From Planotetraspora mira (GTDB lineage: Bacteria; Actinomycetota; Actinomycetes; Streptosporangiales; Streptosporangiaceae): a stretch of 64,000 nucleotides of DNA. Positions within the stretch are counted from its first letter, which is position 1; each line of letters starts with the position of its first letter. Below the pieces are notes generated by a model, which was given only the letters and a program-made list of their open reading frames with translations, was not told where the DNA came from and searched no databases. Shown here piece by piece: positions 20,616 through 35,300 of this stretch. The stretch spans positions 62,001 through 126,000 of the forward strand of contig NZ_BOOO01000039.1 in the NCBI RefSeq assembly GCF_016863275.1, in the 5' to 3' direction. The position numbers and the translations under genes are program-made.

Positions 20616-21194
20616 ATGACGAGTCCGGCGGAGCTGCTCCGCGACTTCGTGAACACCTACGACGTCGAGGAGGACGCCGATGAGCTGTCCTCCCCCGCCG
20701 AGCTGTCCCTATGGCTTCGCGAGCGGGGACTGATCGACGCCGCCGACAGCGCCATGGAAGGCGACCTCATGGTGGCGACCCGGCTGCGCGAGGGACTGCG
20801 GCACGTCCTGATCGCCAACCACGACGCCACGCCGTACGACGTCTCCGGCGACCTGGCCTCCGCCCTGCGCGCGCTGCCGATGCGGGTGACGCTGACCGGC
20901 GGGACGCCGGCGCTGGAGCCGGCGGTCACCGGCGCACCGGCCGGGCTGGCGAGGCTCGCCGCCCTGATCCCCGCCGCCCACGCCGACGGTTCCTGGTCAC
21001 GGCTGAAGGTGTGCGCCGAGAGCACCTGCCAGTGGGCGTTCATCGACTCCTCGAAGAATCGATCCCGCTCATGGTGTTCGATGCGCGTGTGCGGAAACCG
21101 CAGCAAAACCCGGACATATCGGGCGCGACGTCGGGCGGACGACCCATCAGGCCACGCTGACCAGTACGGTGAGACGGGCAAGGAAGGGAGTTGA
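20616..21194 (+). CDS. CGNR zinc-finger domain regulator
   Basis: 192 residues from ATG at 20616, with GGAGG about 12 bases upstream. The N-terminal helical domain (about 1-140) resembles the RsfA/ABATE-type stress domain found with CGNR fingers (LLRDFVNTYDVEEDADELSSPAELSLWLRERGLI... ALRALPMRV). The C-terminal finger is KVCAESTCQWAFIDSSKNRSRSWCSMRVCGNRSKTRTYRARR, with four cysteines and the CGNR signature, a predicted DNA-binding element. The gene is 6 bp from the downstream GNAT gene, so the two form an operon. Targets probably include its own promoter, given the inverted repeat at 20533. Confidence 0.85.
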   Translation: MTSPAELLRDFVNTYDVEEDADELSSPAELSLWLRERGLIDAADSAMEGDLMVATRLREGLRHVLIANHDATPYDVSGDLASALRALPMRVTLTGGTPALEPAVTGAPAGLARLAALIPAAHADGSWSRLKVCAESTCQWAFIDSSKNRSRSWCSMRVCGNRSKTRTYRARRRADDPSGHADQYGETGKEGS

Positions 21195-21199
21195 CGCAC

Positions 21200-21784
21200 A
21201 TGGGTGTCAGGACTGCTCGCCTCGAGGACGTCGAAGCGGTGACGAGCACCCAGATCCGCGCGTGGAAGTACGGCTACCGCGACTTCCTGCCGGCCGGCCC
21301 GCTGGAGCAGATGACGGGTGCGGCCGCCGAGAAGATGTGGCGCCGCCAGTGGGACGAGGCGATCGTCTCGCCGCCCACTCCCCGGCACCGCGTGCTCGTG
21401 GCCGTGGAACGTGTCATGCCCGACGGTGAAGCCTCGGACGCCGCGGAGACCGAGGAGTCGCCGGACTCCGACCGCGTCGTCGGACTGGCCTCGCACGGAC
21501 CGGCCGAGGACCCCGACGTGAGCCCCTCCACGACCGCGGAGCTGCTCACCCTGCTGATCGACCCCAATCACATCCGGCGTGGTCACGGCAGCAGGCTCCT
21601 CAACGCGACCGTCGACCACCTGCGCGATGACGGCATCCGCACCGTGGTGACGTGGGTCTTCGCCGACGATCACGCGATGGTCGGCTTCCTGGAGTCGGCC
21701 GGCTGGGGCGAGGACGGAGCGGAGCGCGTGCTCGACATGGGCCGTCCCATCCGCATGATCCGCCTGACCACCGACATCAGCTGA
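21200..21784 (+). CDS. GNAT-family N-acetyltransferase
   Basis: 194 residues. VRTARLEDVEAVTSTQIRAWKYGYRDFLP is the usual N-terminus of RimI-like GNAT enzymes; LLTLLIDPNHIRRGHGSRLLNATVDHLRDDGIRTVVTWVFADDHAMVGFLESAGW contains motif A (RRGHGSRLL, acetyl-CoA pyrophosphate loop) and the C-terminal GF-x-GW element. ATG at 21200 is favoured over the TTG at 21191 because GGAAGGGAG at 21183-21191 abuts the TTG. It sits directly after the CGNR gene. The acceptor substrate is unknown. The first 53-bp repeat core begins 18 bp after its stop. Confidence 0.82.
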   Translation: MGVRTARLEDVEAVTSTQIRAWKYGYRDFLPAGPLEQMTGAAAEKMWRRQWDEAIVSPPTPRHRVLVAVERVMPDGEASDAAETEESPDSDRVVGLASHGPAEDPDVSPSTTAELLTLLIDPNHIRRGHGSRLLNATVDHLRDDGIRTVVTWVFADDHAMVGFLESAGWGEDGAERVLDMGRPIRMIRLTTDIS

Positions 21785-21801: not shown

Positions 21802-21976
21802 CGTGATCATGCACACCTTCGCGCCCACCCCCTCCGACCTGCCCACCCCCCGGGCGTGATCATGCACAGGTTCGTGCATATGGCCTCCGACCAGCACACC
21901 CTTCGCGCGCGATCATGCACGGATTCGCGCGCGCGGCTGTGACCTGCGGGCATTCAGTTCGTGATCATGCATCCTG
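21802..21976 (+). repeat. 53-bp-period repeat array, locus 1 (four units)
   Basis: Core sequences start at 21802, 21855, 21908 and 21960, spaced 53, 53 and 52 bp. The core is CGTGATCATGCACAGGTTCG (exact at 21855-21874); the others are CGTGATCATGCACACCTTCG, CGCGATCATGCACGGATTCG and a shorter CGTGATCATGCATCCTG. A second block, (T/C)GACC(T/A)GC, begins 33, 33 and 32 bp after the first three core starts. The array lies between the GNAT gene and menA. The same unit occurs inverted at 30293-30463. Confidence 0.85.
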
Positions 21977-21994
21977 AGGCGTCCCTTCCGCGGT

Positions 21995-22046
21995 CCCGCG
22001 AAGGCAAGACAAGCAAGAATCCCGCGAAGCAAGACAAGCTAGAAAA
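21995..22046 (+). repeat. 26-bp tandem duplication upstream of menA
   Basis: CCCGCGAAGGCAAGACAAGC at 21995-22014 continues AAGAAT; CCCGCGAAGCAAGACAAGCT at 22021-22040 continues AGAAAA. The two 26-bp copies differ by one base shift and a substitution. The A/G-rich second copy ends ten bases before the menA GTG and so forms its leader, including the likely ribosome-binding sequence AAAAGG. Confidence 0.7.
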
Positions 22047-22055
22047 GGTAAGAAA

Positions 22056-22925
22056 GTGGCCACACCAGCTCAGTGGTTAGCGGGCGCACGCCCCCGTACG
22101 CTCCCCGCGGCCGTCGTCCCCGTCGTCGTCGGCACAGGGGCGGCGATCTCGCAAGGCGGCGCGGTCTGGTGGCGGGCCGTGATCGCGCTGTTCGTGGCGC
22201 TGGCCCTGCAGGTCGGGGTGAACTACGCCAACGACTACAGCGACGGCGTCAAGGGAACGGACCGGGACCGGGTCGGGCCGATGCGACTGGTGGGCTCGGG
22301 CGTTGCACCGCCCAAGGCCGTGCTCGCCGCCGCGCTCGCCTGCTTCGCCGCCGCCGCGGTCGCCGGGCTCGCCCTCGTGATCGTGACCGGCGCGTGGTGG
22401 CTGCTCCTGGTCGGGCTCGCCGCCATCCTGGCCGCGTGGTTCTACACCGGAGGTTCCCGCCCGTACGGCTATCGCGCCATGGGCGAGATCTCGGTCTTCG
22501 TGTTCTTCGGCCTGGTGGCCGTCGCGGGCACGACCTACGTCCAGCTGGAGCGGCTGACCTGGCTGTCCCTCGTCGCGGCGATCCCTGTGGGCCTGCTCGC
22601 GTGCGCCCTGCTGGTCGTCAACAACCTGCGCGACATCAATACCGACGTGGTGTCCGGCAAGCGGACTCTCGCCGTGGTCCTCGGTGACGGCCGCACGCGC
22701 GTGCTCTACTCCGCGGCACTGATCCTGCCGATCGTGATCGCGCTCGCCCTGGTGCCGGCGCGGCCCTTCGCCGCGCTCACCCTGCTGGCCGTTCCCCTTG
22801 TGGCGGCTCCCGTCAAGACGGTCCGCTCCGGCGCGACCGGCCCGGCGCTCATCGCCACACTCCAGCAGACCGGGCGCCTCCAACTCGTCTTCGGCGTCCT
22901 GTTCGCCATCGGCCTCGCGCTCTGA
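22056..22925 (+). CDS. menA: 1,4-dihydroxy-2-naphthoate polyprenyltransferase
   Basis: 289 residues with about eight to nine membrane helices. It prenylates 1,4-dihydroxy-2-naphthoate to demethylmenaquinone in the cytoplasmic membrane. The first Asp-rich motif NYANDYSDGVKGTDRDRVGPMRLVGSG (DxxD-type, Mg-prenyl diphosphate binding) and the second region LLVVNNLRDINTDVVSGKRTLAVVLG are both visible. GTG at 22056 encodes the conserved ATPAQWLAGARPRTLPAAVVPVVVGTG start. It stands alone between a repeat array and a convergent terminator with dapB. Confidence 0.93.
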   Translation: MATPAQWLAGARPRTLPAAVVPVVVGTGAAISQGGAVWWRAVIALFVALALQVGVNYANDYSDGVKGTDRDRVGPMRLVGSGVAPPKAVLAAALACFAAAAVAGLALVIVTGAWWLLLVGLAAILAAWFYTGGSRPYGYRAMGEISVFVFFGLVAVAGTTYVQLERLTWLSLVAAIPVGLLACALLVVNNLRDINTDVVSGKRTLAVVLGDGRTRVLYSAALILPIVIALALVPARPFAALTLLAVPLVAAPVKTVRSGATGPALIATLQQTGRLQLVFGVLFAIGLAL

Positions 22926-22934
22926 CCCGCGTGT

Positions 22935-22967
22935 GTACGGCTGCCGCCGAACCGCCGGCAGCCGTAC
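22935..22967. terminator. Bidirectional terminator between menA and dapB
   Basis: GTACGGCTGCCG (22935-22946) and CGGCAGCCGTAC (22956-22967) form a perfect 12-bp stem with a 9-base loop. It fills the 55-bp gap between convergent menA and dapB. No long T-run follows, as is usual in high-GC actinomycetes. Confidence 0.8.
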
Positions 22968-22980
22968 CCCTGCGCGCGGC

Positions 22981-23808
<828 letters not shown>

Positions 23809-25119
23809 TCAGGCGATCGCGAAGCCGAAGTCCTTGTCCGAATAGGGACCGATGACCGCGAGCGTCAGCGGCCGGTTCAAGATGTCGCCGGCCACGGCGG
23901 CGAGGTCGTCGGGCGTGACCGCCTCGATCCGGGCGAGGACCTCGTCCACCGACATGAGCTCCTCGTAGACGAGTTCGCTCTTGCCGATGCGGGACATGCG
24001 GGAACCGGTGTCCTCCAGCCCCAGCACGAGCCCGCCGCGCATCTGGCCCTTGCCGCGGGCGATCTCCTCGGCGGTGATGCCCTCGGCCACGACCCTGGCC
24101 ACCTCGTCACGGCAGATCTTCAGCACATCGTCGATCTTGGACGGCAGGCAGCCGACGTAGATGCCGAACTGGCCGGTGTCGGCGTACTGGGAGGTGTAGC
24201 TGTACGCGCTGTAGGCCAGGCCGCGCTTCTCCCGGATCTCCTGGAACAGGCGCGACGACATGCCGCCGCCGAGCGCCGCGTTCAGGACCCCCAGGGCGAA
24301 GCGCCGCTCGTCCGTCCGGGACACGCCCGTCATACCGAGGACCAGGTTGGCCTGCTCGGTGGGACGGTCGACGACCCTGATGCCGGAACGCTCCTCGACG
24401 CCGGGACCGCCGAGACGAGGAGGCGCGGGGCTGGCGACAGCGCCCAGCGCCCCCGCCCGCTCGTATGCCGCGGCCACCAGTTCGACCACCCGCTCGTGGC
24501 TCACGTTGCCGGCCACCGACACGACGGTCTGCGGCGGCACGTAGTAGCGCTGGTAGTACTCGGCGATGCGGTCACGGGTGAGCGCGTTGATCGACTCCTC
24601 GTTGCCGAGGATCGGCCGCCCGATCGGCGTGTCGCCGTACAACTCGGCGGAGAACTGCTCGTGCACCACGTCGGACGGATCGTCGTCGTGCATGGCGATC
24701 TCTTCGAGGATCACGCCGCGCTCGGACTCCACGTCCTCAGCGGTGACCAGCGAAGAGGTGACCACGTCGGCGAGCACGTCGATCGCGATCGGCAGGTCCT
24801 CGTCGAGCACCCGGGCGTAGTAGCAGGTGTACTCCTTGGCGGTGAAGGCGTTGATCTCACCGCCGATGCCCTCGATGGACGCCGAGATCTCCATGGCGTC
24901 GCGCGTGGGCGTGCCCTTGAAGAGCAGGTGCTCGAGGAAGTGGGTGGCCCCCATGTGCTCGGGGGCCTCGTCACGTGACCCGATGCCGACCCACATGCCG
25001 ACCGCGACGCTCCGCACGGTCGGCATGGTTTCGGTCACCACTCGAAGACCGCCGGGAAGGACGGTGCGGCGAATGACGCCCGCGCCGTCCTTACCGGGGT
25101 GCAGAGTCGTGGTGGTCAC
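23809..25119 (-). CDS. M16-family zinc metallopeptidase
   Basis: 436 residues. N-terminal zinc motif HFLEH at 60-64 ([14 protein letters not shown]), with a downstream glutamate in the [12 protein letters not shown] region, defines the inverzincin (pitrilysin/MPP) family. The second half (about 230-430) is the inactive C-terminal M16 domain with the RG-type [27 protein letters not shown] motif. GTG at 25119 overlaps the pnp stop (GTGA), giving translational coupling. The pnp-M16 order is conserved in actinomycetes. Substrates are unknown; a cytosolic oligopeptidase role is likely as no signal peptide is present. Confidence 0.92.
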
Positions 25120-27422
25120 GAGTTGCGGTCGTCCCGGCCACCGCGGGTGCGGCGGCGCGGCCTCTCCGTGCGCTGCTCGTCCTGCGGCTCCGCCGCCGCC
25201 ACGGGCGCGCTCTCGCCCTCGTCGCCGCCACCGGCCGCCTTCTCCGCGGCCTCCTTCTCGACGACCTCGACCGGCACCAGGGACAGCTTGCCGCGGGCGT
25301 CGATCTCAGCGATCTCGACCTGGACCTTCTCCCCGACGCTCATGACGTCCTCGACGTTCTCGATGCGCTTGCCGCCGTGCAGCTTGCGGATCTGAGAGAC
25401 ATGCAGCAGGCCGTCCTTGCCGGGAAGCAGCGACACGAACGCACCGAAGGCGGCGATCTTGACGACCGTGCCCAGGTAGCGCTCGCCGACCTCCGGCATG
25501 TGCGGGTTCGCGATGCCGTTGATCAGCGACCGGGCCGCCTCGGCCGACGGGCCGTCGGTGGCGCCGATGTAGATCGTGCCGTCGTCCTCGATCGTGATCT
25601 CGGCGCCGGTGTCGTCCTGGATCTGGTTGATCATCTTGCCCTTGGGGCCGATGACCTCGCCGATCTTGTCTACCGGAACCTTGATCGTGATGATGCGCGG
25701 CGCCGTCGGGTTCATCTCCGCCGGAGAGTCGATCGCCTCCTGCATCACGTCCAGGATCGCCAGACGCGCGCCGCGCGCCTGCTTGAGCGCGGCCGCCAGC
25801 ACGCTGGCCGGGATGCCGTCCAGCTTGGTGTCGAGCTGCAGGGCCGTGATGACGTCCTTGGTGCCGGCGACCTTGAAGTCCATGTCGCCCATGGCGTCCT
25901 CGGCGCCGAGGATGTCGGTCAGCGTGACGAACTGGTCGCCCTCGCCGATGAGACCCATGGCGATGCCGGCCACCATCTCCTTGAGCGGGACACCCGCGTC
26001 GAGCAGGGCCATCGTCGAGGCGCAGACCGAGCCCATCGAGGTCGAGCCGTTCGAGCCCAGCGCCTCCGACACCTGCCGGATCGCGTACGGGAACTCCTCA
26101 CGCGACGGCAGCACGGGGATGAGCGCGCGCTCGGCGAGCGCCCCGTGGCCGATCTCGCGCCGCTTGGGCGAGCCCACGCGGCCGGTCTCACCGGTGGAGT
26201 ACGGCGGGAAGTTGTAGTTGTGCATGTAGCGCTTGGTGCGCTCGGGGTTCAGCGTGTCGATCATCTGCTCCATGCGGAGCATGTTCAGCGTGGTGATCCC
26301 GAGGATCTGGGTCTCACCGCGCTCGAACAGCGCCGAACCGTGCACCCGCGGGACCACGTGGACCTCGGCGTTGAGCTGCCGGATGTCCTTGGGGCCGCGG
26401 CCGTCGATGCGGACGCCCTCCTTGATGACGCGCGCGCGCATCAGCTTCTTGGTCAGCGACCGGAACGCGGCGCCGACCTCCTTCTCCCGGCCCTCGAAGT
26501 CGGGGAGGACCTTCTCCGCGGCGAGCGCCTTGACCCGCTCGATCTCGAGCTCGCGCTCCTGCTTGCCCGCGATGGTCAGCGCGGAGCCGAGCTCGGTGCT
26601 GACGGCCGCGGTGACGGCCTCCAGGACGTCCTCCTGGTAGTCCAGGAAGATCGGGTACTCCGCGGTCTCCTTGGCGGCGACCCCGGCGAGCTTCGCCTGC
26701 GCGTCGCAGAGGACCTTGATGAACGGCTTGGCCGCCTCGAGGCCCTGGGCCACGGTCTCCTCGGTCGGCGCGACGGCACCATCGGCGACCAGCTTGAGCG
26801 TGTCACGCGTCGACTCGGCCTCGACCATCATGATCGCGACGTCGCCGTCCGCCAGGACGCGACCCGCGACGACCATGTCGAACGTGGCGTTCTCAAGCTC
26901 GGTGTGGGTCGGGAACGCCACCCACTGGCCCTCGATCAGCGCGACGCGGACGCCGCCGATCGGGCCGGAGAACGGCAGACCGGCGAGCTGGGTCGACAGG
27001 CTGGCCGCGTTGATCGCGACCACGTCGTACAGGTGCTCCGGGTGCAGCGACATGATGGTCGCCACGACCTGGATCTCGTTGCGCAGGCCCTTGACGAACG
27101 ACGGGCGCAGCGGCCGGTCGATCAGGCGGCAGGTGAGGATCGCGTCCTCGGACGGCCGGCCCTCCCTGCGGAAGAACGAGCCGGGAATCCGGCCCGCGGC
27201 GTACATCCGCTCCTCGACGTCGACGGTGAGCGGGAAGAAGTCCAAGTTCTCCTTGGGATTCTTGGACGCGGTGGTGGCGGACAGGACCATCGTCTCGTCG
27301 TCGAGATAGACGACGGAGCTTCCTGCCGCCTGGCGCGCGAGGCGACCGGTCTCGAACCGGATCGTGCGCGTGCCGAAGGAGCCGTTATCGATAACGGCTT
27401 CCGTGCTGTGGACACCCTCCAC
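25116..27422 (-). CDS. pnp: Polyribonucleotide nucleotidyltransferase (PNPase)
   Basis: 768 residues. Two RNase PH domains (about 15-225 and 335-570), a linker helix domain, a KH domain (about 585-645, [33 protein letters not shown]) and an S1 domain (about 655-725, [30 protein letters not shown]). Phosphorolytic 3'-5' exonuclease and, in actinomycetes, the main 3'-tailing polymerase. The C-terminus is a variable charged tail ([36 protein letters not shown]). Preceded by tandem hairpins after rpsO, matching an autoregulated rpsO-pnp unit. Confidence 0.97.
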
Positions 27423-27716
27423 GGGGGACCTCCTTCTCGGGTCGGTCTCCCGCGTCCTTCCGTTTGCCGGGCTCCCCGTTCAGGTGCAGTGCCGGTCTTC
27501 GATCGAAGCGCCCGGTTTCGTCTGTACGGCTGTCGCCGTACTGACCGGGGGCCACTACCGAGGACCGGCCCTCTCACGCCGCGGGATCGCGCGTGCTGCT
27601 TGCTTGCGGACGCGGGGCACATGTTCTGTCGGGTCGAGTCGGCCTTCCGGCTCCCTCTCCCTCTCGGCTATTCAGTTGTCTCGGCCCGGGCCGCTCACAC
27701 CGGCGACTCACCGGGA

Positions 27717-27758
27717 CCTTTCTCGTAGCAGGCCAATTGTGGCCTGCTACGAGAAAGG
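27717..27758 (-). ncRNA. Long perfect hairpin in the rpsO-pnp leader (processing or attenuation element)
   Basis: CCTTTCTCGTAGCAGGCCA (27717-27735) and TGGCCTGCTACGAGAAAGG (27740-27758) are perfect 19-bp arms around a 4-base loop. No T-run follows on the minus strand. Position between rpsO and pnp matches the RNase III target stems of this operon in E. coli and Streptomyces. Confidence 0.75.
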
Positions 27759-27780
27759 AGCGGCGAAGACTCGCCGCTCC
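27757..27780 (-). terminator. Second hairpin directly after rpsO
   Basis: GGAGCGGCGA (27757-27766) and TCGCCGCTCC (27771-27780) form a perfect 10-bp stem with a 4-base loop, nine bases after the rpsO stop. It shares two bases with the 19-bp hairpin, so the two stems stack end to end. Probable rpsO terminator or 3' stabiliser. Confidence 0.7.
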
Positions 27781-27789
27781 CCGCCCACG

Positions 27790-28059
27790 CTATCGGCGCA
27801 GACCCAGCCGCTCGATCAGGGTGCGGTACCGGGTGATGTCCTTGGCCTGCAGGTACTTGAGCAGCCGACGGCGGCGGCCGACCAGCAGGAGCAGACCGCG
27901 ACGGCTGTGGTGGTCGTGCTTGTGGGTCTTCAGGTGCTCCGTGAGGTCGCTGATGCGCTTGCTCAGCAGCGCGATCTGGACCTCAGGGGACCCGGTGTCG
28001 CCCTCGCCCGTGCCGTACTCGGTGACGATGGCCTTGGTGGTGGCGGTGTCAAGCGACAC
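27790..28059 (-). CDS. rpsO: 30S ribosomal protein S15
   Basis: 89 residues, the family length. Signature [74 protein letters not shown]. Primary 16S rRNA-binding protein of the 30S platform. The ATG at 28059 is preceded by AGAAGGAGAAGC. Upstream 220 bp to ribF hold its promoter and leader; I could not identify a defined S15-binding regulatory fold. Confidence 0.97.
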
Positions 28060-28279
28060 TGCTTCTCCTTCTCATGGGAAGGCACGCGGAATACTCTCAA
28101 GCCCGCGAACGACCGTGCGTGCCTACAGTCGCCGTGACAGGCCAGCCCGGTGGTGAGAAGCACCATCTGAACATGGCTGACATGCAAGGCTACCACCGCA
28201 GCTCAGCGGGCCGCACACTTGCGATCACGGAGGGGTCCGGACGGCCTTCCCCGCCCGGCCTGCCTGGCATCTTGCCTGG

Positions 28280-29248
28280 TCATCCCCGACTTGCCTGGTC
28301 ATCCCCGGCGGTCAGGCGGCGGGCCTCGTCGACGTCCGCATGCATCTGCTCGATCAGATCCTCGATCGAGTCGAACCTGAGGGTGTCACGGAGCCGCTCC
28401 GAGAAGTCGACCGCCACGTGCGCGCCGTAGAGATCGAGATCGTCCCGGTCCAGCGCGTACGCCTCGACCGTGCGCGACACCCCGTCGAAGGTCGGATTCG
28501 TGCCGATGGAGATCGCGGCCGGCCACCGCTGCCCCTCGTACTGCGAGGGCTCCTGCGTGCACTGCAGCCACCCCGCGTAGACCCCGTCGGCCGGGATCGC
28601 CATGTGCTGGGGTGATTCGACGTTGGCCGTGGGGAAGCCGAGCGCGCGGCCGCGCTGATGACCCCGGACGACCACTCCCTCGACCCGGTGGGGGCGGCCG
28701 AGCGCCGCCGTCGCGCCGACCACGTTCCCCTCGGCCAGCATCTCGCGGATCAAGGTCGACGAGATGGCCTCGCCGTCGCGTACCAACGGCACGCCTTCAG
28801 TCACGTAATCGTATTTTTCGCCCAGCGTCCGCAATGTCTCTATATCGCCGGAGGCTTTGTGGCCGAAGCGGAAGTTCTCCCCCACCACGACCCCCGCTGC
28901 ATGGAGCCGGTCGACCAGGGCGGTCTGCACGAACTCGTCCGGCGACATCCGGGAGAACTCCAGCGTGAACGGCAGCACGCACACCGCGTCGACGCCCAAT
29001 GCCGCGAGCAGTTGGGTGCGCCGGTGCGGAGTGGTCAGCTGCGGAGGGTGGCTGCCCGGCCGCACGACCTCGTCAGGATGGGGGTCGAAGGTCACGGCCA
29101 CGGCGGGAACACCGAGGTCGCGGGCCAAATCGACCGCCCTGGCCACCATGTGCTGGTGACCGTGGTGCACACCGTCGAACACGCCGATCGTGACGACGGA
29201 CCTGCCCCAGTCCCCGGGGACGTCCTCCAGCCCGTGCCAGCCCTGCAC
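28280..29248 (-). CDS. ribF: Bifunctional riboflavin kinase / FAD synthetase
   Basis: 322 residues from GTG at 29248. N-terminal FMN adenylyltransferase (about 1-190) with GVFDGVHHGHQHM (HxGH nucleotidyltransferase motif) and SSTLIREMLAEGNV; C-terminal riboflavin kinase (about 190-310) with GHQRGRALGFPTANV, SIGTNPTFDG and VEAYALDRDDLDLYG. Makes FMN and FAD. No FMN riboswitch is seen upstream. Gene order truB-ribF-rpsO follows the actinobacterial norm. Confidence 0.95.
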   Translation of the reverse strand: MQGWHGLEDVPGDWGRSVVTIGVFDGVHHGHQHMVARAVDLARDLGVPAVAVTFDPHPDEVVRPGSHPPQLTTPHRRTQLLAALGVDAVCVLPFTLEFSRMSPDEFVQTALVDRLHAAGVVVGENFRFGHKASGDIETLRTLGEKYDYVTEGVPLVRDGEAISSTLIREMLAEGNVVGATAALGRPHRVEGVVVRGHQRGRALGFPTANVESPQHMAIPADGVYAGWLQCTQEPSQYEGQRWPAAISIGTNPTFDGVSRTVEAYALDRDDLDLYGAHVAVDFSERLRDTLRFDSIEDLIEQMHADVDEARRLTAGDDQASRG

Positions 29249-29381
29249 CTCGACCTCGATTCCTGTACGGCTTTCGCCAACCGGCCGAAGACAAGCCTGC
29301 CATGCCCTACGGCGATTGCGGGAACCAGCCCCTGGACAGTCTCCGATCAGTGCCTGATTCGCTGCCTGATTCAGAACTCGC

Positions 29382-30281
29382 TCAGGGCACGAAGACCGCG
29401 AGCGGCCGCGCCGTCCCCCCGCGCTCCTCGACGAGCGCCAGCAACGTGCCGTCGGGGCCGAATACCCCGACGGGCCCGGCTCCCAGGCCCGCCGACGCGA
29501 GGCGCCCTCCGTGCGCGACCAGCCGGGCCTCCTCCTCCGAGACGTCCCTGCGGGGGAACGCGGCGGCCACGGCCTCGGCCATGGGCAGGATCACGCACTC
29601 CCGCGACAGGTCCTCGATGGTCCTCGCCGACTCGATGCCGTACGGCCCGACCCGCGTCCTGCGCAAGTAGGTGAGATGGCCGCCCACGCCGAGGGCCGCG
29701 CCGAGATCACGGGCCAGGGCACGGATGTACGTGCCGCTGGAGCAGGTGACCGTGGCATCTACGTCGACCGACTCCCCCTCCCGGCGGATCCCGGTCACCT
29801 CGAAGGCGTGGATCGTCACCGGACGAGCCGCGAGCTCGACCTCCTCGCCCGCCCTCGCCCGCTTGTAGGCCCGCTCACCGTTCACCTTGATGGCGCTGAC
29901 CTGCGGGGGAACCTGCATGATCTCGCCGGTCAGCGCCGCGATCCCCTTGCGGACGTCCTCCTCGGCGACGTGGCCCGCCGGCGTGGTGGCGGTGATCTCC
30001 CCGTCCGCGTCGTCGGTGTTGGTCGTGGCGCCGAGACGCAACGTGGCCTCGTAGACCTTCTGAGTGAGGGCGAGATGCCCGAGAAGCCGGGTCGCCTTCT
30101 CCACGCCGATCACCAGGACCCCGGTCGCCATCGGGTCCAGGGTGCCCGCATGGCCCACCTTGCGGGTCCCGGCGATGCCGCGCATCTTGCCGACCACGTC
30201 ATGCGACGTCCATTCCGCCGGCTTGTCGACGATGATCAGCCCACTGGGGGGCGCGGGCCGGCGCGGCCTAGCCGTACTCAT
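29382..30281 (-). CDS. truB: tRNA pseudouridine(55) synthase
   Basis: 299 residues. Catalytic motif KVGHAGTLDPMATGVLVIGVEKATRL with the active-site aspartate, GLIIVDKPAEWTSHDVV near the N-terminus, and SSGTYIRALARDLG. The C-terminal TruB_C/PUA-like segment (about 235-295) is shortened as in actinobacteria. Converts U55 in tRNA T-arms. ATG at 30281 lies just below the degenerate first unit of the 53-bp repeat array, so its leader is repeat-derived; no good Shine-Dalgarno is visible. Confidence 0.95.
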   Translation of the reverse strand: MSTARPRRPAPPSGLIIVDKPAEWTSHDVVGKMRGIAGTRKVGHAGTLDPMATGVLVIGVEKATRLLGHLALTQKVYEATLRLGATTNTDDADGEITATTPAGHVAEEDVRKGIAALTGEIMQVPPQVSAIKVNGERAYKRARAGEEVELAARPVTIHAFEVTGIRREGESVDVDATVTCSSGTYIRALARDLGAALGVGGHLTYLRRTRVGPYGIESARTIEDLSRECVILPMAEAVAAAFPRRDVSEEEARLVAHGGRLASAGLGAGPVGVFGPDGTLLALVEERGGTARPLAVFVP

Positions 30282-30292
30282 GAGAGGTCCAA

Positions 30293-30463
30293 TGCATGGT
30301 CACGAAACGAGGGTACGCAGGTCAGGGTGCACGTTCGGGAATTCGTGCATGATCACGAATCGGGTCGTCGCAGGTCATGCCGGTCACGCCCGAACCTGTG
30401 CATGATCACGGATCAGGTTGGGGCAGGTCAGGACCCCTGCGCCCGAACCTGTGCATGATCACG
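30293..30463 (-). repeat. 53-bp-period repeat array, locus 2 (three units plus one degenerate)
   Basis: On the minus strand the core CGTGATCATGCACAGGTTCG occurs exactly at 30444-30463 and 30391-30410, as ATTCGTGATCATGCACGAAT at 30341-30360, and degenerate (CGTGACCATGCA) at 30293-30304. The TGCATGATCACG element recurs every 53 bp (30293, 30346, 30399, 30452). TGACCTGC blocks lie 33 bp from each of the three intact core starts (30423-30430, 30370-30377, 30317-30324). The stop codon of the DHH phosphoesterase lies inside the last core. Confidence 0.88.
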
Positions 30464-31478
30464 CGGAAGGGGGGTGCGGGGGGCGGAGGTGGGGGCGGAG
30501 GGCGGCCATCGTCTCTTCTGGGGACACGTGGGAGGAGAACCCGGCGGCGGACGGATGCCCTCCCCCGCCGAGGGTGGTGCAGGCCCTGCCCACGTCGACG
30601 GCCCCCTTGGAGCGGGTCGAGACGTTCCAGACGCCGTCGTCGGCCTCCTTGAGCACGACCGCGACGTCCGCCTCGTCGACCCGGCGGACGACGTCGATCA
30701 CGCCCTCCACCTCGTCGTACGGCAGGGCATGTGCCGCGCGGTCGGCCCTCGTCACGTAGGTCCACACGATCCCGTGGCCGGCGGCCTCTGCGGGCTCCAG
30801 CGTGACGCGGTCGAGCGCGGCGCCCAGCACCCGCAGATAGGCGAACGGCGACCGGTCCCACAGCTCGCGGGCGATCTCGTCCGGGCGCAGGCCCGCGGAG
30901 ATCAGCCGACCTGCCATGGCGTGGGCCGCGGGTGTGGTCGCCGAGTATCGGAAGGACCCGGTGTCGGTCACCAGCCCCGTGTAGAGGCAGGCGGCGACGT
31001 CCCGGTCGATCGTGAGCCCGAGCCGGTGGATCAGCTCCTCCACGATCACGGTGGTCGAGGCGGCGGACGGGTCGATGAGGTGCAGCGACCCGAAACCGGT
31101 GTTGGAGACGTGATGGTCGAGCACGACCAGGTCCCCGGCCCTGCCCGCGTTGGGGACGAGCAGGCCGAGCCTGTCCATGGTCGAGGCGTCGAACGTGATC
31201 ATCAGGGGTGGCTCCGCCGGGTAGGCCGCCGGCTCCACCAGGAGGTCCTGCCCGGGAAGGAATCGCAGCAGCCTGGGCACCGCGAACCCCCGGTCCCCGA
31301 ACGAGGCGACCACTTCCGTGCCCGTCTGTCGCAGGGCCAGACCGAAGCCCAGCATCGACCCGAGCGCGTCCCCGTCCGGGGACACATGGCAGGCGAGCGC
31401 GACGGAGTCCGCGCCGCGGACCAGTTCGACGGCCCGATGCCAGTCCGTCTCGGCGACGGCCGTACCGTGCGTGATCAC
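30459..31478 (-). CDS. nrnA: DHH/DHHA1 phosphoesterase, NrnA-like (nanoRNase / pAp phosphatase)
   Basis: 339 residues from GTG at 31478. DHH domain (about 20-190): [25 protein letters not shown] (DxD metal motif), [19 protein letters not shown] (DHH motif). DHHA1 domain (about 230-330) ends in the [11 protein letters not shown] motif. Degrades 2-5-mer RNA and dephosphorylates pAp in the family. It overlaps rbfA by 4 bp. Its last residues (PPHPPSA) and stop run into the 53-bp repeat, so the repeat has supplied the C-terminal end. Confidence 0.92.
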
Positions 31479-32369: not shown

Positions 32370-35300
32370 TCAGCTACGCGGCTTCTCCCGCATCTCGAAC
32401 GTCTCGAAGACGTCGTCGATCTTGATGTCGCTGTATCCGAGGCCGATACCGCACTCGAAGCCCTCGCGGACCTCGGTCGCGTCGTCCTTGAAGCGCCGCA
32501 GGGACACGACGTTCAGGTTGTCGGCCACGACGACACCGTCGCGGATGATGCGGGCCTTGCTGTTGCGGGTGATCGTGCCCGAGCGGACCAGCGCACCGGC
32601 GACGTTGCCGATCTTCGGCACCTTGAAGACCTCGCGGACTTCGGCGGTGCCCGTCTGGACCTCTTCGAACTCCGGCTTCAGCATGCCCTTCAGGGCCGCC
32701 TCGATCTCCTCGATCGCCTGGTAGATGACCGAGTAGTACCGGATGTCGACGCCCTCGCGCTCGGCCAGGTCGCGCGCCCGGACTTCGGGGCGGACGTTGA
32801 AACCGATGATGACGGCGTTGTCGTCGGCGATCGCGAGGTTGACGTCGTACTCCGTGATCGCACCGACGGCGCGGTGCAGCACGCGGAGGTTGACCTCCTC
32901 ACCCACATCGATCTTGAGCAGCGCGTCCTCGAGGGCTTCCACCGAACCGGAGACGTCACCCTTGATGATGAGCTTGAGCTCGTCGACCTGGCCCTTCTCG
33001 AGGTCCTTGAACAGCTCCTCGAGAGTGCGCCGGCGGCCGGACTTGGCCATGTCCGCGATGCGCTGCCGGGCCGCCCGCTGCTGGGCGATCTGACGCGCCA
33101 TCCGGTCGTCGGTGACGACGATGAAGTTGTCACCGGCGCGGGGGACGGCGGTCAGGCCGAGCACCTGGACCGGACGCGACGGGTCGGCCTCGTCGACCGT
33201 GTCCCCGTTGTCGTCCAGCATCGCCCGGACGCGGCCGAAGGCCTCGCCACAGACGATCGAGTCGCCGACCCGCAGGGTGCCGCGCTGCACGAGCACGGTC
33301 GCCACGGGACCGCGGCCCCGGTCGAGGTTCGCCTCGATGGCCAGGCCCTGGGCGTCCATGTGCGGGTTGGCCCGCAGGTCGAGCTCGGCGTCCGCGGTCA
33401 GCACGATGGCCTCGAGCAGGTTGTCGATGCCGGTGCCGTTCTTCGCGGAGATGTCCACGAACAGCGTGGAACCACCGAACTCCTCGGCCACCAGGCCGTA
33501 CTCGGTCAGCTGGGCCCGGACCTTGGTCGGGTCCGCACCCTCCTTGTCGACCTTGTTGACCGCCACCACGACCGGCACGTTCGCCGCCTGTGCGTGGTTG
33601 AGCGCCTCGATGGTCTGCGGCTTCACACCGTCGTCGGCCGCGACCACCAGGACGGCGATGTCGGTGGCCTGCGCACCACGGGCACGCATGGCGGTGAACG
33701 CCTCGTGACCCGGGGTGTCGATGAAGGTGATCTTCCGCTCTTCACCCTCGTGCACAGCCGTCACCTGGTAGGCGCCGATGTGCTGGGTGATGCCGCCGGC
33801 CTCGCGGGCGACGATGTTGGTGTTCCGGATCGCGTCGAGCAGCTTCGTCTTACCGTGGTCGACGTGACCCATGACGGTCACGACCGGCGGACGCGGAGCG
33901 AGGTCCTCCTCGTCACCCTCGTCCTCGCCGAACTCGATCTTGAAGGACTCGAGAAGCTCCCGGTCCTCCTCCTCCGGGCTGACGACCTGGACGACGTAGT
34001 CGAGCTCGGCGCCGAGAAGCTGCAACGTCTCCTCGTTGACCGACTGGGTCGCGGTCACCATCTCGCCGAGGTGCAGCATGATCTGCACGAGCGAGGCGGG
34101 GTTCGCACCGATCCTGTCGGCGAAGTCGGCCAGCGACGCGCCGCGCGGAAGGCGGATCGTCTGCCCGCCGCCACGCGGAGCCTGCACGCCACCGATCGCC
34201 GGGGCCTGCATGTTGTCGAACTCTTGACGCCTCTGACGCTTCGACTTGCGACCACGGGTGGGCCGGCCGCCGGGACGCCCGAAGGCACCCGCCGTACCGC
34301 CGCCACGGCCACGGCCGCCGCCACCACCGGGACGACCGGCGAAACCGCCGCCGCCGCCACCGGGACCGCCCGTGCCGCCACCAGGACGACCGGTGCCCGC
34401 GGCACCCGTGCGAGGACCGCCGAAGCCGCCACCGGGACGACCGCCGCCGCCACCAGGACCCGGACGGCCACCGCCGCCACCAGGACCCGGACGACCGCCG
34501 CCGCCACCAGGACCCGGACGGCCACCGCCGCCACCGCCACCGGCGGGACGGCCCTGCGGCATCATCATCGGGTTGGGGCGCGGGCCACCGGGACGAGGAC
34601 CACCGGCGCCGGGACCAGGGCGAGGACCGCCCGCGCCGGGACCGGGACGGGGACCACCGGGACCGGGACGAGGACCGCCCGCACCGGGAGCGCCCGTACG
34701 GGCACCCGGCGGACGCGGCATCGCTCCGTCACGGCCGCCGTCACGACGCGGCTCGCGAGGGCCGCGATCTCCGCGATCGGGCCGGTCGGTGCGCTCAGGA
34801 CGCTCGGCGCCGCCGTCGCGGCTGCCGGGACGCGCGGGACGCTGACCCATGCCGCTGGCGGTCGAGGAGAACGGGTTGTTGCCCGGACGCGGGCCACGGG
34901 GACCCGGCTTGGGACCGCCGGGACGCGGAGCGCCTCCGGAGGGCGCACCCGGGGCCGCAGGCGCACTCGACGCGGGCCGGGGGGCCGGGGCCGGTCGCGG
35001 ACCGGGCTTCGGCGCTCCGGGACCGGCGGGCCTGCCGCCGGACGCCGCCGGACGCTGAGCCTGTGCCGGGGGACGGGTGACCTCGGGACGCGCCACTTCA
35101 GGCTGACGCGTCACCTCAGGCTGGTGCGCCACCTCGGGCTGGGGAGCCGGCTGGGCCGGCTGCGTCGGATGGGGCATGGGAACCGGACGCGGCGCAGGCC
35201 GCGGACCCGGCTTGGGGCCTGGCTTCGCCACCGCGTCGGCCGACGGGGAAACGGGCGCCGACGGGGCGCCACCGGCCAGACTCTCGGCCGGCCTCGGCGC

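Follow-up and report, generated by a model that had tools for sequence, protein, structure and literature searches.

The 64,000-nucleotide stretch of the Planotetraspora mira genome analyzed here (contig NZ_BOOO01000039.1, positions 62,001 to 126,000; hereafter the window) carries two inverted arrays of a short repeat, and the question that they raise is what such arrays are and what keeps them in the genome. An initial annotation, made from the letters of the window alone, had described their 53-bp period, with a single 52-bp step, and their 20-bp core, both of which we found exactly where it had placed them, and had offered several possible meanings. Its view of a repeated, protein-binding-like array stands, and the nonautonomous element that it listed came closest among its options; the partner gene, being located on a different contig, was out of its sight. 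Based on the findings reported below, we propose that the two arrays are sites of a dispersed extragenic family that is probably maintained by conditional cutting and repair through the product of a single gene, an AbiEi-type protein with a nuclease domain.

Results

A nuclease gene is bracketed by the repeat word

When the 11-bp foot of the core, GTGATCATGCA (hereafter the word), was listed in 21 genomes, direct-repeat clusters of it were seen in G346 and G434, paired at a distance of roughly 1 kb, and the gene lying between these clusters encodes a protein of 304–310 amino acids. A protein search in the same 21 genomes returned 12 relatives with E ≤ 1.6e-35 (loci L143–L154), every one of which has the word or a one-mismatch variant of it on both sides of the gene. 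The 12 bracketed relatives are distributed over six genera and four families (f1, f28, f30 and f40), with the flanking copies arranged as direct arrays at ten loci and as inverted doublets in two g50 genomes. None of the 15 weaker paralogs (L157–L171) is bracketed by the GTGATCATGCA word; the best match in G062 has no word nearby, and a match in G269 is accompanied by one exact copy and two copies with a mismatch.

The gene of P. mira itself is located at G000:C30:192057–193022 (L151:1477–2442), on a contig other than that of the window. Inward-facing 53-bp arrays flank it, holding four words to one side and three to the other, and an array lies directly upstream of the nuclease gene. No gene among 732 in an 864-kb sample of the same genome (800 kb from contigs C1, C2 and C4 plus the window, with genes called by a codon-bias finder) is bracketed by inward arrays. 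The nuclease has a P450 gene on one side in six genomes, namely the four nuclease-bearing ones of Planotetraspora and two of g65, and an epimerase gene on the other side in the five of them that were read there (all but G004). Neighboring genes were scanned with Pfam at two of the 12 loci (L149 and L143) and judged by eye at the remaining ones. The scanned neighbors are P450 and GDP-mannose dehydratase/epimerase genes in G003 and P450 and Rieske oxygenase genes in G346, and no AbiEii-like toxin gene was found beside the nuclease at these two loci. We also observed that at L143 and L149, which represent two different families, the nuclease element directly follows the cytochrome P450 gene, either by chance or through a shared insertion preference.

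The protein is composed of an AbiEi-type region followed by a Vsr-like, EDxHD-like nuclease domain (REase_MTES_1575), a domain that has been assigned to the Vsr family of nucleases (PMC3710099). At E ≤ 1, the Pfam model PF18741 for this domain matched all 12 members, AbiEi_1 matched eight and AbiEi_4 six, and all 12 matched AbiEi models of PADLOC. The P. mira protein scored 40.9 bits with PF18741 against a cut-off of 38.2, with the G346 and G434 proteins falling under the cut-off. The nuclease-type residues E192, D224, E235-Y-D-G, H242, D251 and R254 are invariant in all 12 proteins. The partner protein is thus predicted to be a nuclease with an intact EDxHD-like motif, and its AbiEi-type region is, by homology, a DNA-binding one. 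Origins from phages or plasmids were considered and rejected: no match was obtained in 50,697 phage records (E ≤ 1e-10), 41 viral stretches matched a pattern with none of them confirmed, and eight records of the plasmid collection each had less than 60% identity.

A DnaA-box-like word (TTATCCACAG type, either strand) was noticed within 110 nt upstream of the start of all 12 array-flanked nucleases, and in the same upstream span of 10 of 16 other paralogs vs. three of 732 P. mira genes (loci L143–L170). Judged from this motif, expression of the nuclease may be tied to replication.

The word follows the gene across genomes

Among 200 genomes of the family, a close nuclease (E ≤ 5e-143) occurs in eight, the next relative having an E value of 2.9e-111. 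Ten or more words were counted in seven of these eight genomes and in four of the 192 others (G002, G054, G062 and G091), and in the eighth nuclease-bearing genome, G120, a variant word flanks the gene.

Further, both the sequence past the 11-bp foot and the period vary with the lineage of the nuclease. The word flanking g65 nucleases is mainly GTGATCTTGCA, while the sequence past the foot reads CGTTCGCCCC in G346, CGCCAGACC in G434 and ATCCCGCC or GTCCCGCC in G228. The flanking steps measure 52–53 bp at the Planotetraspora and g65 loci listed, 31–38 bp in G346, G434 and G228, and 32–35 bp on one side and 44–54 bp on the other in G287. Cumulatively, we regard the association between word and gene as strong and have hardly any doubt about it.

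Two further paralog groups appear from sequence to own flanking words, one clearly and one less so. Paralogs L159 (G346:C4:135534–139304) and L168 (G434:C20:556144–559914) are flanked by CAGAGAAGTGGGG / CCCCACTTCTCTG doublets, which also occur elsewhere in the same genomes; CCCCACTTCTCTG has 19 copies in G346, nine in G434 and none in six other genomes. Paralog L157 (G243:C13:71336–75145) is flanked by several TGCTACCGCT repeats, of which there are 40 copies in G243 vs. 2–9 elsewhere. Flanking arrays of this kind are missing at the 22 loci examined among the next-best relatives in the family (L180–L201, E values from 2.9e-111 to 6.0e-76), and therefore only some subfamilies seem to own repeats. 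Side observations among the paralogs are 24-bp and 33-bp inverted flanking repeats at L164 and L167, and weak multi-copy 10-mers at L188, L196, L197 and L199.

Loss of the gene and decay of the arrays

In Planotetraspora G002 no nuclease was matched at E ≤ 1e-5 with a single protein or at 1e-30 with a profile, and only 48 bp, containing a single degraded unit, separate the aligned P450 side from the epimerase side. Because the gene occupies this position in g65 too, we read its absence from G002 as a loss. Exact copies of the 11-mer number 290 in G002 vs. 739, 786, 807 and 1083 in the four nuclease-bearing genomes of the genus. Within syntenic stretches, at least three words are kept at 10 of 11 P. 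mira sites in G001, where the gene is present, and at one of six in G002; with the two window sites added, the counts are 12 of 13 vs. three of eight (p = 0.014), two nuclease-locus rows having been excluded from the G002 comparison and the window sites counted by eye on alignments. The decay of arrays in G002 is partial.

Between P. mira and G001, both of which have the gene, array sites mostly persist. One recent recombination event without conservation in relatives, the outcome on which the initial annotation would have been given up, is not what the two window loci show: array 1 is conserved in the three alignable congeners (G004 is not alignable there) and array 2 in all four. They change length by whole units, G001 being one unit short in array 1 and G002 in array 2. 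Over ten sites shared by P. mira and G001, core positions 1–14 are 93% identical and the second block 79%, vs. 58–59% for the spacers, a value that is an underestimate where gain or loss of units misaligns them. The site at C1:60117 is absent from G001, with no alignable empty site there.

A dispersed extragenic family with a constant layout

Further genomic copies, which the initial annotation had named beforehand as what its idea depended on, are abundant. In the P. mira genome (9.03 Mb, 100 contigs) we counted 717 cores with at most three mismatches, 348 on one strand and 369 on the other, vs. no match of the reversed control word. The exact 11-mer has 739 copies vs. about one expected from the base composition of the window. 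The five Planotetraspora genomes hold 171–618 cores each (≤2 mismatches). A spaced double core was found in the contig collection in Planotetraspora only, in 27 stretches of three species (records near the P. mira genome were possibly omitted), and a class-wide scan detected exact GTGATCATGCA hairpins, with differing stems, in six of 394 genomes, these six belonging to five families. A direct role in chromosome organization or at ter, also raised at the outset, has little in its favor: the two strands are used about equally, and the sole hint of replication for the arrays is the DnaA-box-like word before the nuclease gene. Strand polarity was rejected in G062:C1, where 57 plus-strand and 57 minus-strand words occur over 280 kb. 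Beside an array on the same contig, near 165946 (L106), we saw a short run of GTGATGAGCAC-like units, perhaps a young minisatellite.

The anatomy of the family was studied in the 864-kb sample, whose 800-kb part comes from contigs chosen as known core carriers with about twice the genome-average density, so that its densities are not genome estimates. It contains 43 core groups (≤4 mismatches), 38 of them with at least two units; the arrays have 2–6 units, mostly 3–4, and 91 of 92 steps measure 53 bp. A unit is built as C-GTGATCATGCA-CAGGTTCG, about 13 variable bases, the block TGACCTGC and about 12 variable bases, and arrays usually close with a half-core GTGATCATGCA in place of a full last unit. 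Core positions 2, 4–8, 10 and 11 are identical in all 130 sampled units and position 9 is T in 98%, a conservation inflated by the selection of units with at most four mismatches to the core; the spacers are weakly constrained in the same units. An RNA stem formed by CAGGTTCG and TGACCTGC was rejected, as variants at positions 15–16 occur without a matching change in the block (judged by eye) and Rfam has no match at the arrays.

All 38 arrays with at least two units were assigned to intergenic DNA, whereas four of the five single-core matches (≤4 mismatches) lie inside genes. The 24 occupied intergenic regions comprise 16 tandem, seven convergent and one divergent region, an enrichment by region type that is not significant (p = 0.19 and 0.06); 14 of them hold an inward-facing pair of arrays around a short centre and ten a single array. 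Of the 38 arrays, 26 have their outer end directed toward the 3′ end of a gene, within 50 nt in 24 cases, and in six arrays, array 2 of the window included, the core supplies the stop codon according to the codon-bias gene calls. The 20 nt outside the first core contain 53% C vs. 39% after plus-strand gene stops generally. In 33 centres from four genomes (two of which overlap others, so that the same element is counted twice), the two ends of a centre are more complementary to each other than to those of other elements (2.67 vs. 1.70 matches, with a maximum of 8), an excess reached in none of 2000 permutations.

The two arrays of the window and their neighbors

Array 1 (21802..21971, plus strand) consists of three full units with cores starting at 21802, 21855 and 21908 and a terminal half-core at 21960–21971; array 2 (30293..30463, minus strand) consists of three full units with cores at 30444–30463, 30391–30410 and 30338–30357 and a terminal half-core at 30293–30304. 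The exact core CGTGATCATGCACAGGTTCG occurs at 21855–21874 (+), 30391–30410 (−) and 30444–30463 (−). The cores starting at 21802 and 21908 (+) have at most three mismatches, making five such cores in the window vs. 0.01 expected, and the sixth, at 30338–30357 (−), is more divergent. Units are spaced by 53 bp, including the last step of array 2, except for the 52-bp step from 21908 to 21960 in array 1, and TRF called a period of 53 for both arrays. The second block, said by the initial annotation to lie 33 bp after the start of the core, is present as a TGACCTGC-like sequence at 33 bp (once 32) in all six full units: as CGACCTGC at 21835..21842, CGACCAGC at 21888–21895 and TGACCTGC at 21940–21947 on the plus strand, and at 30423..30430 (TGACCTGC in unit 1 of array 2), 30370–30377 and 30317–30324 on the minus strand. 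It is missing from the half-core that terminates each array.

Array 1 begins 17 nt from the stop codon of a GNAT gene (21191–21784) and is followed by a UbiA-family gene (22056..22925, plus strand). Array 2 overlaps the end of a DHH/DHHA1 gene (30459–31478, minus strand), the TGA stop of which (30459..30461) lies within the first core, and its terminal half-core is 11 nt from the start codon of the downstream neighbor truB (29382..30281, minus strand). The Pfam-scanned genes beside the two arrays have no functional relation to one another.

Three other features of the window were noted. A 25-bp tandem duplication at 21994–22044, between array 1 and the UbiA gene, is present in P. mira and absent from G001, G002 and G003; a known Actino-pnp RNA leader (Rfam RF01688) lies at 27491–27569 (−), upstream of a gene read as pnp; and GC-rich 21/27-bp tandem repeats occupy 34344–34689 within a long open reading frame read as infB.

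Discussion

The findings that the word brackets the gene, varies with it and decays after its loss are consistent with the arrays of the window being maintained, at a distance, by the AbiEi-type nuclease. Maintenance of arrays by the nuclease is supported by one lineage, that of G002; cutting, copying and dispersal are inferred. In the mechanism that we propose, the AbiEi region would bind GTGATCATGCA, together with the TTCG/TGACCTGC part, cooperatively, with one dimer for every five or so helical turns. Given hundreds of genomic sites, the nuclease cannot freely cut ordinary duplex and would therefore act conditionally, its likely substrate being a palindromic centre that has been extruded or has become single-stranded as the DNA replicates. 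The arrays would then be refreshed, lengthened, shortened and occasionally spread when the cut is repaired from another array copy. More generally, we consider it an evenly balanced possibility that AbiEi-Vsr-like nucleases of Actinomycetes form a second enzyme class, of independent evolutionary origin, by which genome-wide extragenic repeat families with subfamily-specific words are founded and maintained, as is assumed of RAYTs for REPs, and in which 53-bp arrays serve as the binding platform and the palindromic centre as the substrate.

Several observations weigh against this explanation. The Fisher p of 1e-9 for co-occurrence of word and close nuclease overstates independence because the eight nuclease-bearing genomes represent three genera only, and the word used for the count came from Planotetraspora. 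G062, G091 and G054 hold 824, 134 and 90 words with no flanked close nuclease found; either a paralog of greater distance serves them as partner, or the partner may have been lost. The loss comparison concerns one lineage only, in which both window arrays persist, array 2 being shorter by one unit. No movement was seen in a sample that covers roughly one tenth of the genome, which makes for a weak test: none of 172 P. mira units has a spacer identity of at least 0.8 to a unit more than 5 kb away, and among 71 G001 units only one is matched this well outside its orthologous position; 65 of the 71 G001 spacers stay below 0.8 to the P. mira sample. On a sample of this size, the idea that spacers arise mainly by ectopic gene conversion is unsupported and was set aside. 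The complementarity of centres is modest on average, and the reversed control word of TGCTACCGCT in G243 is barely rarer than the word itself (33 vs. 40). The closest plausible solved chain for the nuclease is 3r3p, a "mobile intron protein" that we take to be I-Bth0305I, at E = 0.69, which is not a confident relative, and the chains ranked above it look like chance.

The rival that survives best is a chromosomal regulator or architectural protein, for which the arrays are operators or domain boundaries at gene ends kept by host selection, and the nuclease fold is structural or rarely used. The strong conservation of cores against drifting spacers, the conserved position of sites (10 of 11 in G001), the helical phasing of 53 bp and the approach of outer ends to gene 3′ ends would all be expected of it, and loss of sites upon loss of the gene is also compatible with relaxed selection. 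It accounts poorly, however, for catalytic-type residues that are invariant in all 12 proteins, for the element-like position of the gene inside arrays, for words and periods that vary by lineage with other paralogs having words of their own, and for the functionally unrelated genes beside the window arrays. We therefore consider it unlikely, if the most serious of the alternatives.

Addiction of the toxin–antitoxin type, in which a toxic or defence nuclease is restrained by arrays acting as operator decoys and loss of arrays harms the cell, is improbable. It draws on the cooperative binding of promoter inverted repeats described for AbiEi antitoxins (PMC7319586), on the PADLOC matches of all 12 members and on the arrays directly upstream of the gene; yet no AbiEii-like toxin gene is present at the two scanned loci, hundreds of decoys would go far beyond the need for autoregulation, and G002 lives without the gene.

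Ordinary terminators, repetitive extragenic palindromic (REP) repeats or repeats like the mycobacterial interspersed repetitive units (MIRU), standing beside the gene by chance, would fit the C-rich tract before the first core, the hairpin-like centres and the intergenic placement. They are strongly disfavored, to the point of being very improbable, by the bracketing of all 12 genes in six genera, the joint loss in G002, the co-variation of word and gene and their co-occurrence. REPs mobilized by a RAYT (Y1 tyrosine transposase) resemble the present family in that they form palindromic doublets, number in the hundreds outside genes and flank a gene present once per genome, but have next to no likelihood here, as PF01797 (E ≤ 0.001) was unmatched in 12 of 13 genomes, with four partial matches in G004 and five of 14 controls positive, and neither a GTAG nor a CGTC foot is present in the word.

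We know of no enzyme class other than RAYTs tied to dispersed bacterial palindromes. The REP/REPIN and RAYT system (REPtron) resembles the P. mira family in its hundreds of short extragenic repeats, its inverted doublets and a gene flanked by its own repeats; predicted hairpin doublets, a cognate gene near the repeats and co-evolution of enzyme and word are described for it (PMC3116915, PMC8266576, PMC3733652). It differs in having an HUH Y1 transposase in place of the AbiEi and Vsr-like nuclease, a GTAG or CGTC foot (PMC3733652) in place of GTGATCATGCA, and no counterpart of the arrays, in which each 53-bp unit carries a second block. CGTC repeats, for their part, apparently occur without a RAYT (PMC3733652). 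By the layout of repeat plus cognate gene alone, our system could be called a REP/RAYT variant; we set it apart because both enzyme and word are unrelated.

AbiEi/DUF559 genes are common in Actinomycetes, with no function that is known to us. With the AbiEi antitoxins of type IV toxin–antitoxin systems the partner protein shares the AbiEi-type region, and known AbiEi proteins are described as binding inverted repeats of their own promoter, with positive cooperativity in Streptococcus agalactiae and with negative cooperativity for a relative from M. tuberculosis (PMC7319586). Unlike AbiE, the present system has a nuclease fusion, hundreds of sites far from the gene and no AbiEii-like toxin at the two scanned loci. 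The EDxHD homing endonuclease I-Bth0305I, which is described as dimerizing on target DNA almost 60 bp long (PMC3943268), has a comparable E-x-D...H...D motif and a target length close to the 53-bp unit, keeping in mind that the sequence link between the two proteins is weak (3r3p, E = 0.69). Homing endonucleases differ in that no intron or intein was noticed here and that the gene is single-copy, with a location shared by two genera.

The literature matches listed, mainly open-licence papers, include none that links DUF559, AbiEi or MTES_1575 to dispersed repeats. The MIRU of mycobacteria belong to the 53-bp class and lie between genes, so that the likeness to the P. mira units is one of length and placement; to our knowledge, no nuclease is associated with them. 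If our explanation is true, a second enzyme class for dispersed repeats would stand beside the RAYTs, accounting for repeat families in several Actinomycete genera and suggesting a job for AbiEi/DUF559 genes, with the flanking sequence of the gene as a route to assigning words to AbiEi-nuclease proteins and G002 as a natural case of loss.

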